Below, one piece after another: positions 27,895-32,516 of a DNA stretch of 64,000 bases. Position numbers and translations under genes: made by a program. The stretch comes from Microbacterium sp. LWS13-1.2. GTDB taxonomy: Bacteria > Actinomycetota > Actinomycetes > Actinomycetales > Microbacteriaceae. The notes beneath the pieces were generated by a model, which saw nothing but the letters and a program-made list of their open reading frames with translations, was not told the DNA's origin and searched no databases. The stretch covers positions 620,001-684,000 of the forward strand of contig NZ_CP151632.1 of the NCBI RefSeq assembly GCF_040144835.1, in the 5' to 3' direction. Numbering within the stretch: position 1 is the first letter of the stretch; each line of letters starts with the position of its first letter.

Positions 27895-28668
27895 ATGACA
27901 GAAACCCCTTCCGGCGCCCGGCCGCTGCCGGAGACCACCGACCGCGCCGAGTGGCAGAGCCGACTCGATGACCTGCTTGTAAAAGAAAAGGCGCACACGC
28001 GCGCCGGTGACGAACTCGCTGCAGAACGTCGCCGGCTGCCGATGGTCGAGGTCGATCCGACGACGCCGGTGATCGGCGCCGATGGTCCGATCCCGCTCAT
28101 CGAGGTCTTCGAGGGGCGTTCCCAGCTGATCGCGTACTTCCACATGTGGCATGACGGGAAGCCTGCGGCCCGGCAGTGTGTCGGGTGCACGTTCTCGACC
28201 AGCCACATGAACGAGTTGTCGTATCTGAACTCGCGCGACATCACTTACGCGACGTTCTGCGAGGGCCCCTACGAGGCGAGCTCGCGCTACCGGGACTTCA
28301 TGGGCTGGACGATGCCCTGGTACGCCGTGCCCGTGGAGTCGCTCGACCAATTGGTCGCCGGGCGGGATTTCGGGATGCTGGTCTGCTACCTGCGCGACGG
28401 CGACCGCGTCTACGAGACGTACTGGACGACCGGTCGCGGCAACGAGCGCATGGCACCGTCATACGCGCTGATGGACCTCACCGTGTACGGCAGGCAGGAG
28501 TTCTGGGAGGACTCCCCCGCCGGCTGGCCGAAGCAGTTCGACACACGCGGACAGCAGATGAGTCTCAAGGGCCGTCCGACGGCGCAGTGGCCCCGTATCC
28601 GCGCCGGCCACGGCGACGATCTCGGCGAGGCGGCGGAGAGCTCCCCGGAGCACGCTCATCACCACTGA
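27895..28668 (+). CDS. DUF899 thioredoxin-like family protein
   Basis: This is a 257-residue DUF899 protein with a thioredoxin-like fold. The conserved segments are LIAYFHMWHDGKPAARQCVG, CTFSTSHM and the SSRYRDFMGWTMPWYAV block. The two cysteines in CVGC lie in the position of the thioredoxin active site, so a redox role is possible. Function unproven. The C terminus has a short histidine run (HAHHH). TAGAGAT lies a few bases before the ATG. The palindromes upstream may control it. Confidence 0.87.
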   Translation: MTETPSGARPLPETTDRAEWQSRLDDLLVKEKAHTRAGDELAAERRRLPMVEVDPTTPVIGADGPIPLIEVFEGRSQLIAYFHMWHDGKPAARQCVGCTFSTSHMNELSYLNSRDITYATFCEGPYEASSRYRDFMGWTMPWYAVPVESLDQLVAGRDFGMLVCYLRDGDRVYETYWTTGRGNERMAPSYALMDLTVYGRQEFWEDSPAGWPKQFDTRGQQMSLKGRPTAQWPRIRAGHGDDLGEAAESSPEHAHHH

Positions 28669-30188: not shown

Positions 30189-30458
30189 TCAGGGGCGGAC
30201 GATCTCGTGCAGGGTTCCCACCACGAGCCGCACCCCGCCCTCGTGCCGGAGCACGGTGAACAGCGTGTGCGTGCAGGTGCGGCAGCGCACGATGGCCGCC
30301 GCCTCATCGATCTCGACGATCGCCTCGGCGACCGGGGCGCCTTCCCGACATCCGCCGCATACCGCGATCAGAGCCGTGACGTCGGCCTCGAACACATCCC
30401 ACAGCAGCCCTGCGGCCGCATTGCCGTCGACCGTGCTGGTCGCGATCTCCGCGCGCAT
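30189..30458 (-). CDS. Small four-cysteine protein (DUF6510-like)
   Basis: This is an 89-residue protein with two CxxC motifs, CGGC (Cys34, Cys37) and CRTC (Cys59, Cys62), consistent with a zinc ribbon or a rubredoxin-like iron site. It resembles the actinobacterial DUF6510 family. The ATG at 30458 overlaps the stop of the flavin reductase gene (ATGA), making it the third gene of a coupled redox operon. It might carry electrons between the other two, but this is a hypothesis; a structural zinc site is equally possible. Confidence 0.82.
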   Translation of the reverse strand: MRAEIATSTVDGNAAAGLLWDVFEADVTALIAVCGGCREGAPVAEAIVEIDEAAAIVRCRTCTHTLFTVLRHEGGVRLVVGTLHEIVRP

Positions 30459-31183
30459 CACGCACCTCCGAAACGTTCGGTCCTGATCCGGGCAGGCGGA
30501 TGCCCCAGCCCGACGAGCGCGTCCGCGACGTGCTCGACGAAACCCGTCGGGCCGCACACGTAGACGATCGGCTCCCGACCCGGCTCCCACGTGGCGGCAC
30601 GGAGCACGTCATCGTCGACACGTCCCACGCGTCCCTGCCAGCCGCCGGGTGCGCCGCGCGTGTACCTCCAGGTGAGGGCCACTCCCCCGTTGCTCGCCTG
30701 GCGCTCCAGCTCGTCGCGATATATCGCGTCTTCCGCCGTGCGCACCGAATACAGGAGCCGGACAGATGCCGCGGCTCGGGCATCCGTCGCCGCCCGTACG
30801 ATCGCCATCAGCGGCACGATGCCCGAGCCGCCCGCGATCAGCTGCACCGGCTCCGCTCCCCCGGGCCGCCAGACGAAGTAGCCGCCGAGCGGACCCTTGA
30901 CTTCGAGCTCGTCGCCGGGCAGCACGTCGCGCACGAGGTAGGGCGACACCTCTCCGTCGGGGATCTCGTCCACGGCGAGCTCGATGGTCTCGCCGGGTCC
31001 GTACGAGCCGATCGAGTACGACCGCACGGCCTGATAGCCGTCCTCGGCCGTGAGCCGGATGTCGACATGCTGTCCGGCCTCGTTCCCGGGCCAACCGGGA
31101 ACCTGGAGATGCAGCAGGCGCGCGGACGGCGTCGTACCGACGGCCTCGACCACACGAGCCGGCTGCCAGCCTCCCACCGTCAC
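30458..31183 (-). CDS. FAD/NAD(P)-binding ferredoxin reductase-type protein
   Basis: This is a 241-residue flavoprotein of the ferredoxin-NADP reductase superfamily. The FAD motif RSYS is at residues 54-57, GGSGIVPLMAI near 117 binds NAD(P)H, and CGPTGFVEHVADAL is the C-terminal signature. There is no 2Fe-2S domain, so electrons must pass to another protein. The GTG at 31183 forms a GTGA overlap with the upstream molybdopterin gene, making it the obvious reductase partner for that enzyme. Confidence 0.9.
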   Translation of the reverse strand: MTVGGWQPARVVEAVGTTPSARLLHLQVPGWPGNEAGQHVDIRLTAEDGYQAVRSYSIGSYGPGETIELAVDEIPDGEVSPYLVRDVLPGDELEVKGPLGGYFVWRPGGAEPVQLIAGGSGIVPLMAIVRAATDARAAASVRLLYSVRTAEDAIYRDELERQASNGGVALTWRYTRGAPGGWQGRVGRVDDDVLRAATWEPGREPIVYVCGPTGFVEHVADALVGLGHPPARIRTERFGGA

Positions 31184-31773
31184 CAATATCGCTCCTCGGT
31201 CCAGGGGTCACCGTGCATGTTGTAGCCGTTCTGCTCCCAGAAGCCGGGTTCGTCGTCGTCCATCAGTGTGAGTCCGCGCACCCATTTCGCGCTCTTCCAG
31301 AAGTAGAGGTGCGGCACGAGCAGTCGCGCCGGGCCGCCGTGCTCGGGGTCGAGCGGTTCGCCGTCGAACTCGAACGCGACCCACGCCCGGCCCTCGCGCA
31401 GCTCGTCGAGCGGGATGTTCGTCGTGTAGCCGCCGTACGAGTGCGCCATGGCGTAGGCCGCATCCGTCTCGACCTCGTCGAGGAGGGTGTCCAGCGACAC
31501 GCCCCGCCACGACGTGCCGAGCTTCGACCAGCGCGTGACGCAGTGGATGTCGGTGTCGACGTCCTCGATGGGCAGCGCCTGGAACTCCTCCCACGTCCAG
31601 CAGGTCTCCGCGCCTCCCTCGGTGCGGATGCCGAACCGCCACTCCCCCAGGTCGATACGGGGCGTGGGCCCCGCCGACAGCACCGGGAAGTCCTCGGTCA
31701 GGTACTGGCCGGGCGGCAGTCGCGGATCGCTTTCGCGACGCCGTGCTCCGAAACCCCTCGACACGACGGCCAT
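31180..31773 (-). CDS. Molybdopterin-dependent sulfite oxidase-like oxidoreductase
   Basis: This is a 197-residue single-domain protein of the sulfite oxidase/YedY (MsrP) molybdopterin fold. DIHCVTRWSKLG holds Cys78, the expected molybdenum ligand. It lacks a Tat signal and a dimerisation domain, so it should work in the cytoplasm, unlike periplasmic MsrP. It heads an operon with a flavin reductase and a four-cysteine protein joined by 4-bp overlaps. The reaction could be reduction of an S- or N-oxide or oxidation of a small substrate; the direction is unknown. GGAGGAGGG sets the start. Confidence 0.9.
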   Translation of the reverse strand: MAVVSRGFGARRRESDPRLPPGQYLTEDFPVLSAGPTPRIDLGEWRFGIRTEGGAETCWTWEEFQALPIEDVDTDIHCVTRWSKLGTSWRGVSLDTLLDEVETDAAYAMAHSYGGYTTNIPLDELREGRAWVAFEFDGEPLDPEHGGPARLLVPHLYFWKSAKWVRGLTLMDDDEPGFWEQNGYNMHGDPWTEERYW

Positions 31774-31958: not shown

Positions 31959-32516
31959 ATGTCCACTGCATCCGAAGCCGAGAAGTCGGCCGTCAACGGG
32001 ATCCGCACGGCGCTCGGCGTCGGCGGCGTCCTCGCACTCATCGTCGGCATCCTGATCCTGGTCTGGCCGGGAAAGACCGCCGCCGTGGTCACCGTCATCA
32101 TCGCGATCTACGCGATCGCCGCCGGGCTCGTCTACGCCGGTCTCGGGATCTTCTCGAAGACGAAGGGCGGGTGGGCGCGTGTCGGCCACATCGCCCTCGG
32201 CATCCTGTTCATCATCGCCGGCGTCGTGGCGCTGTTCAACATCGGTCAGACGACCGCGTGGCTCGCGCTGTTCCTCGGCATCCTCATCGGAATCATGTGG
32301 ATCGTCGAAGGCATCGTCGCGCTGTCGACACTCGGTGACGCCGCCTCGAAGGGCTGGTCGATCTTCTTCGCCATCCTGAGCATCATCGCGGGCATCATCG
32401 TGCTGTTCTCGCCGATCTGGGGCGTCATCGTGCTCTGGTGGATTCTGGGCATCTCGCTCATCGTCCTCGGCATCATCAACATCGTCCGCGCTTTCACCTT
32501 CAAGGGCGACATCTGA
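31959..32516 (+). CDS. HdeD-like (DUF308) membrane protein
   Basis: This is a 185-residue protein with six hydrophobic segments in three repeated pairs, the DUF308/HdeD pattern. In E. coli HdeD is linked to acid resistance, but the role in actinobacteria is not established. Repeats of the type ALGVGGVLALIVGILILVWP are visible. It is monocistronic and ends at a 40-bp palindromic terminator. Confidence 0.9.
   Translation: MSTASEAEKSAVNGIRTALGVGGVLALIVGILILVWPGKTAAVVTVIIAIYAIAAGLVYAGLGIFSKTKGGWARVGHIALGILFIIAGVVALFNIGQTTAWLALFLGILIGIMWIVEGIVALSTLGDAASKGWSIFFAILSIIAGIIVLFSPIWGVIVLWWILGISLIVLGIINIVRAFTFKGDI

Follow-up and report, generated by a model that had tools for sequence, protein, structure and literature searches.

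In Microbacterium sp. LWS13-1.2 three adjoining genes very likely specify a molybdenum enzyme of the cytosol, a flavin reductase that is dedicated to it and driven by NAD(P)H, and a small helper protein resembling a zinc ribbon. The genes lie on the minus strand, from position 31773 down to 30189 of a stretch of 64,000 nucleotides (the window, here always the whole stretch), which belongs to a genome of one contig with 4,326,447 bases. They follow each other in the order molybdopterin protein of family PF00174 (MOCO), flavoprotein (FNR) and small protein with the domain DUF6510. We lean towards the reading that MOCO and FNR act as a reductase of methionine sulfoxide, or of sulfoxides more broadly, with electrons passing from NAD(P)H through flavin adenine dinucleotide (FAD) to molybdenum, that the enzyme serves the repair of oxidant damage in the cytosol, and that DUF6510 is an accessory zinc ribbon.

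31180..31773 (stop included), minus strand: MOCO, sulfite-oxidase-family molybdopterin protein of 197 amino acids (P0003), PF00174 at 122 bits
31540..31542, minus strand: codon of Cys78, the expected molybdenum ligand (HCVTRWS), opposite the Cys in RCVEAWS of E. coli MsrP
31222..31224, minus strand: codon of Tyr184, aligned with chicken sulfite oxidase Tyr322 (1sox numbering)
30458..31183, minus strand: FNR, FAD/NAD(P)H flavoprotein with GTG start, PF00970 and PF00175
30189..30461 (GTG start) or 30189..30458 (ATG start), minus strand: DUF6510 protein with CGGC...CRTC, PF20120 at 77.5 bits

The 4 bp GTGA at 31183-31180 are shared by MOCO and FNR. The DUF6510 protein has 90 amino acids and a 4-bp overlap with FNR when read from GTG 30461, and 89 amino acids and a 1-bp overlap when read from ATG 30458. 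Thus, of the initial annotation, which gave 89 residues and 4-bp overlaps throughout, the first overlap stands, and the second goes only with the longer protein. Against three relatives, the ratio of nonsynonymous to synonymous substitution rates is 0.13-0.24 for MOCO, 0.21-0.23 for FNR and 0.32-0.50 for DUF6510, so that purifying selection seems to act on each of the three. Since their order is also conserved, the trio is more than a chance arrangement. In NCBIfam, no listed family exceeds its cut-off for any of the three proteins.

The PF00174 match of MOCO lies far above the cut-off of 24 bits, and its named close relatives are mainly from Microbacterium. MOCO has no hydrophobic N-terminal segment (the 17-residue Kyte-Doolittle maximum near the N-terminus is 0.08, and 1.16 in E. 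coli MsrP). This bears out the initial annotation, which had described a signal-less protein of the sulfite oxidase/MsrP fold with Cys78 in HCVTRWS. The molybdenum-ligand loop C-V-x-x-W-S is present in the profile alignment to E. coli MsrP (E 8e-14). The conserved motifs were followed in 122 aligned rows of MOCO plus FNR, from which the tree was also built; L065, L103, L181 and L184 were dropped for being short or broken, L073 and L096 were excluded beforehand for broken frames, and only loci with both genes were usable. HCVT.W[ST], HG.P.R, WKS.KW and G[FL][WHYF]E..G[YH], the last of which holds the Tyr184 region, are kept in 122/122 rows. In the HMMER alignment query position 186 falls on 1sox 323, and Tyr184 stands opposite Tyr322, a residue with a catalytic role in chicken sulfite oxidase. 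Because a tyrosine is kept at this position, the site is not simply that of MsrP. Leu32 is aligned with Arg138 of the chicken enzyme, taking its place in that sequence and the surrounding letters as we assume them to be; Arg138 binds oxyanions in sulfite oxidase. Hence, the MOCO site seems to combine an MsrP-type loop with a sulfite-oxidase-type tyrosine and to lack the oxyanion arginine.

FNR matches PF00970 (36.3 bits) and PF00175 (70.1 bits), both above cut-off. Nearest to it are MmoC, cytochrome b5 reductase and flavohaemoglobin-type reductases, the best solved relatives being MmoC and cytochrome b5 reductase. The FAD motif R.YS and the motif G[EA]VS are found in 122/122 rows and the nucleotide motif in 121/122. 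No iron-sulfur or haem domain was found in FNR, and the ferredoxin motif C-x4-C-x2-C occurs in 0/122 rows; the initial annotation was right in describing a flavoprotein without its own iron-sulfur domain. In flavoproteins of this type the electrons usually come from NAD(P)H.

MOCO and FNR are a conserved pair, wider in reach than the trio, and DUF6510 is missing in many lineages. Among 119 genomes of the genus, MOCO is present in 61 (62 copies), FNR in 62 (63 copies) and DUF6510 over its cut-off in 57 (58 copies). By coordinates, FNR lies directly downstream of MOCO in 62/62 copies; DUF6510 lies directly downstream of FNR in 58 of the 63 FNR copies, and FNR directly upstream of DUF6510 in 58/58. 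MOCO and DUF6510 occur together in 56 genomes, MOCO alone in 5, DUF6510 alone in 1 and neither in 57 (Fisher p 9e-27, kinship not corrected). One of the five genomes with MOCO and without DUF6510 over the cut-off, G315, retains a 23-position DUF6510 remnant. The cofactor gene moaC is present in all 61 genomes with MOCO, and the 19 genomes without moaC have 0 MOCO and 0 DUF6510 (Fisher p 2e-7, kinship again not corrected). The one genome with DUF6510 and without MOCO is G373, whose locus (L099) is decaying: partial FNR and DUF6510 are kept and no MOCO was found there.

DUF6510 is over its cut-off in 22 of 296 genomes of the phylum sample. With one locus taken per genome, 20/22 carry all three genes in order; of the other two, L013 begins inside FNR at a contig end, and in L002 FNR is missing and DUF6510 comes after MOCO. 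We took 36 phylum loci, 16 chosen for DUF6510 and 20 as high-scoring MOCO matches without it, and FNR stands beside MOCO in 30 of them. The six lowest-scoring MOCO proteins (L090-L095) are those without FNR; they share 50-56% identity with the window MOCO and leave its first 11 or more residues unmatched. We call the 30 loci with FNR window-type, a boundary that was set after the result was seen. Among 80 named loci an FNR match over 60 bits is found in 77; L119 and L182 break off ahead of FNR or within it, and L172 (Rhodococcus ruber) has none. DUF6510 is present in 62/80, three of the other 18 being cut by contig ends. The conserved co-occurrence that the initial annotation proposed as a check is thus seen both in the genus sample and in the named loci. 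The latter include metagenome-assembled genomes (MAGs) labelled Chloroflexota, Verrucomicrobiota, Vulcanimicrobiota and Proteobacteria. In L105, a record under the name Planococcus sp. APC 4015 (Bacillota), the trio resembles that of Microbacterium, with a MOCO 83% identical; the record is probably misnamed or contaminated.

On the tree the label 'with DUF6510' requires 14 changes, at least 8 of them being forced by well-supported branches; the 14 fusions on the tree, with neighbours unknown, were scored as without DUF6510. No third gene in the place of DUF6510 was seen by eye at the pair-only loci among those listed (14 queried). As for other conserved neighbours, the biggest cluster spans 24 loci and the next ones reach 6/96; the biggest was rejected as a new conserved gene, since it looks like antisense frames of the trio.

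Natural fusions link MOCO with FNR and also with DUF6510, as judged from sequence. Joined window proteins served as the query, with single proteins excluded by length, and gave 895 matches, of which 120 were listed. Intact MOCO and FNR motifs stand in one frame in 17/119 listed long matches, for example P0251 (a Trebonia MAG) and P0289 (Capillimicrobium parvum). Fourteen of the 17 could be placed on the tree, all except P0276, P0278 and P0297, and point to two origins. P0251, P0289 and P0246 carry the Pfam domains PF00174, PF00970 and PF00175 and no others. P0330 (8 member sequences) is an in-frame fusion of MOCO with DUF6510, without FNR. The predicted structure of one fused chain (predicted local distance difference test, pLDDT, 91.4; predicted template modelling score, pTM, 0.84) suggests a fixed domain arrangement; in its fold search all 50 listed rows are FNR-type, so that the molybdenum half was barely probed. 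The triple fusions P0280, P0294 and P0306 were rejected, as their conserved MOCO tail is lost in a frame-shift-like manner. The tail motif is missing from 81/119 listed long matches, many of which look like frame-shift joins, as expected when sequencing errors join overlapping genes. Single frame shifts in draft data, where genes overlap or nearly touch, seem to be a source of false multi-domain fusion proteins in databases.

The surroundings of some relatives point to oxidant repair. One genome of the window's genus (G334; L097/L191, C4) has a second trio copy nearly identical to that of Leucobacter chironomi (L142). Its island holds thioredoxin, two msrA, msrB, a cysS-like gene, a TetR regulator and an AhpC/TSA-family gene, and also moaC, moeA, a moeB-like gene of the ThiF-rhodanese type and genes of an ABC transporter that resemble modAB and probably serve molybdate uptake; this copy is evidently a recent transfer of the enzyme together with cofactor genes. 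We therefore tested the adjacency of msr genes on the 80 named loci, G334 not being among them. msrA with msrB is found near MOCO in 5/80, in five genera (L122, L155, L166, L168 and L172), where 0.16-0.32 msrA would be expected at the densities tried; these densities are our own estimates, the lower two guided by genus and phylum counts, and ten families were looked at. The gene order in L122 is MOCO-FNR-DUF6510-msrB-msrA, and L168 has no DUF6510. In the phylum sample msrA lies just upstream of one MOCO copy of G280, among the matches listed. By eye only, a glutathione-peroxidase-like reading frame directly follows the pair in Gordonia paraffinivorans (L170:5326-5799).

MOCO relatives of both types together occur in 242/72,556 plasmid records. 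We read 15 plasmid contexts, selected non-randomly: 12 annotated window-type, 2 of the stand-alone type and 1 unannotated. FNR is found in 11/12 of the annotated window-type contexts, in pieces in L196 and L200, and is undetected in L197. msrA and/or msrB is present in 7/12 (L192, L193, L194, L196, L200, L201 and L205), several of which are copies of one element, and in 0/2 stand-alone-type contexts; neither gene is annotated in L195, L197, L198, L199 (a fragment of the element of L192) and L204. Genes for glutaredoxin, OsmC-type, DUF427 and glutathione transferase proteins, ergothioneine synthesis and a mercuric-reductase-like flavoprotein recur in more than one context, and the Achromobacter context has chlorite dismutase and a cupin too. 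In L192-L194, L199-L201 and L205 the MOCO-FNR pair comes without DUF6510 and is embedded in islands for oxidant repair, flanked by transposases; the plasmids belong to Enterobacter, Comamonas, Pseudomonas, E. coli, Acinetobacter, Aeromonas and Achromobacter. The plasmid islands match the reactive-chlorine neighbourhoods described for chlorite dismutase, as far as the consulted part of that source goes (PMC9751292): the Achromobacter island has chlorite dismutase together with proteins of its Table 1, e.g. WP_012435588 and WP_011342942. That table lists MsrA and MsrB and not the MOCO-FNR pair, and the 'MsrP' of the mycobacterial clusters mentioned there may or may not be of the MOCO type (PMC9751292). 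Near the mycobacterial copies L113 and L114 no chlorite dismutase was seen by eye.

Hence, we suggest the following mechanism. MOCO and FNR would together make up a single soluble enzyme of the cytosol. NAD(P)H would reduce the FAD of FNR, and the electrons would then pass directly from FAD to the molybdenum centre of MOCO, without haem or iron-sulfur; the pairs and fusions lacking DUF6510 suggest such direct transfer. The molybdenum centre would reduce a sulfoxide; the likeliest is methionine sulfoxide, either as the free compound or within proteins. It is from gene neighbourhood that we infer this substrate: the relatives adjacent to MsrA/MsrB genes point to a so far uncharacterised repair of oxidised methionine inside the cell. 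The reduction would serve repair under oxidative and reactive-chlorine stress, beside MsrA and MsrB. DUF6510 may dock on MOCO and help in assembly, stability or substrate presentation, probably with bound zinc, and it would be dispensable in many lineages. The fuller picture, a haem-free and iron-sulfur-free NAD(P)H-FAD-Mo cytosolic methionine sulfoxide reductase that occurs as a pair or fused, is spread by plasmids in reactive-chlorine repair islands and works in actinobacteria with DUF6510 as its dedicated zinc-ribbon subunit, we put forward tentatively, as somewhat short of an even chance.

Among the closest known systems is MsrP/MsrQ (YedY/YedZ), with which MOCO shares the sulfite oxidase family, the C-V-x-x-W-S loop, a small molybdenum domain and, in some copies, the proximity of msrA/msrB. 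However, MsrP is exported by a twin-arginine signal and works with the membrane haem protein MsrQ, whereas MOCO is a predicted cytosolic protein without a signal segment and has a soluble NAD(P)H flavoprotein as partner. No MsrQ-type match was found among the five window neighbours scanned, and the curated MsrP model, the best of the NCBIfam families listed, scores 41.5 bits against a cut-off of 207. Since signal, partner and model score all differ, MOCO would work like MsrP and yet is not a member of it. A cytosolic, NAD(P)H-fed counterpart of MsrP, as the initial annotation had proposed, is supported by the conserved pair, the natural fusions, the MsrP-type Cys loop and some MsrA/B neighbours. 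Eukaryotic assimilatory nitrate reductase likewise joins a sulfite-oxidase-family molybdenum domain with a cytochrome-b5-reductase-type FAD domain, as the fused bacterial proteins do, but MOCO-FNR has neither the haem b5 domain nor the Mo-co dimerisation domain in Pfam scans, and the Cys loop of nitrate reductase is different (CAGNRR). The mitochondrial amidoxime reducing component (mARC) is also a soluble molybdenum enzyme that reduces oxides, with electrons from NADH reaching it by way of a flavoprotein of the b5 reductase type; unlike MOCO, it has the MOSC molybdenum fold and a haem carrier, cytochrome b5. Within the sulfite oxidase family, the cytoplasmic enzymes that form Kappler's group 3, with Deinococcus DR_0716, compared here by review description, are cytosolic, short and carry PF00174 only, as MOCO does, a likeness to which its stand-alone relatives L090-L095 add; in the part consulted they are described as single-subunit (PMC7759655), whereas MOCO has a dedicated FNR, adjacent in all genus copies and fused in some relatives, and often DUF6510.

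The DUF6510 protein itself looks like a four-cysteine zinc ribbon. In the alignment of 74 sequences, which leaves out L143 (DAN instead of DGN), the four cysteines and D11, G12 and N13 are invariant, and the spacing between the Cys pairs is 21 in 73/74; the PF20120 cut-off is 26.4 bits. The predicted structure (pLDDT 88.9, pTM 0.79) has no clear match among solved structures in the fold search. Structural zinc is favoured because about half of the weak fold-match rows listed are beta-tent (Mss4-like) zinc domains, a fold of two beta-meanders, and the weak Pfam matches of the members are for the most part zinc ribbons. In the beta-tent fold, as a partly consulted source describes it, CxxC pairs hold zinc at the apex (PMC4287342). 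The initial annotation had proposed a possible rubredoxin-like electron carrier; DUF6510 would then be an Fe(Cys)4 protein passing electrons from FNR to MOCO, a model that we regard as rather improbable. The invariant cysteines, the glycine after the first Cys pair (62/74), the weak matches to the 'rubredoxin-like zinc ribbon' ChsH2 (17/74) and to the LapB 'rubredoxin metal binding' family (13/74) and the P0330 fusion, which would suit a carrier fed in trans, speak for it. But the glycine follows the second pair in only 11/74, the weak Pfam matches are mainly zinc ribbons, and MOCO-FNR pairs and fusions exist without DUF6510, whose presence changes repeatedly on the tree. No rubredoxin family is among the matches of the window protein up to E 0.1 or in the best 25 of 116 families matched by the 74 members; none is among the fold matches listed either, which excludes nothing.

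The same architecture might also act on another substrate, such as an N-oxide, an N-hydroxyl compound, nitrate or a chlorine oxyanion; it would then be the soluble equivalent either of the eukaryotic nitrate reductase or of mARC and its cytochrome b5 reductase. We consider this unlikely, yet worth keeping in mind: Leu32 aligns where we take sulfite oxidase to have its oxyanion-binding arginine, the Cys loop is MsrP-type and not CAGNRR, msrA/msrB recur nearby, and the annotated plasmid contexts that we read show no conspicuous nitrate genes. Very unlikely, in our estimate, is a dehydrogenase that oxidises sulfite or an organosulfur compound while FNR passes the electrons to NAD(P)+. MOCO does belong to the sulfite oxidase family, and in Sinorhizobium fredii the pair is flanked by YeeE/YedE thiosulfate-transporter-type genes; but the apparent lack of the arginine and the Cys loop count here too, and the usual direction of such flavoproteins is from NAD(P)H. 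On the side of such a dehydrogenase stands also a Gordonia 'sulfite oxidase-like oxidoreductase', its subfamily not established in the part consulted, which is more expressed with organosulfonates than with sulfate (PMC7661421). Several observations weigh against the methionine sulfoxide reductase that we prefer. MsrP alignments have other residues where MOCO has Tyr184. Most MOCO copies, that of the window included, have no Msr gene seen nearby, with none among the window neighbours scanned; in the genus msrA lies within 5 kb of 2/62 copies (G334 and G391, each genome having more than one msrA). One of the five named msrA loci, L172, is without FNR, and it and L197 are window-type loci in which FNR is not detected. 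The islands are rich in oxidoreductases, and some other oxidised compound could therefore be the substrate. In the L002/P0330 lineage MOCO adjoins or is fused with DUF6510, FNR being missing.

The immediate neighbours in the window are FNR, a gene for a Mem_trans transporter and one for a DUF308 protein. The DUF308 membrane protein gene (31959-32516), presumably HdeD-type, is divergent from MOCO, and a DUF899 gene lies at 27895-28668.

Last, our literature search, with subscription papers outside it, returned no description of the MOCO-FNR-DUF6510 trio and none of DUF6510. The initial annotation knew of no described three-part system, and this stands for the trio; uncharacterised cytoplasmic enzymes of MOCO's kind are already mentioned in reviews, in the parts consulted (PMC7759655, PMC8945050). 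For the Deinococcus member, methionine sulfoxide reduction is left open there (PMC8945050). The locus supplies the likely electron donor gene for such a cytoplasmic enzyme and makes this question directly testable, and it gives DUF6510 its first functional setting. As window-type relatives with FNR are found on plasmids of several Proteobacteria, the answer bears on bacterial survival of hypochlorite and related oxidants.
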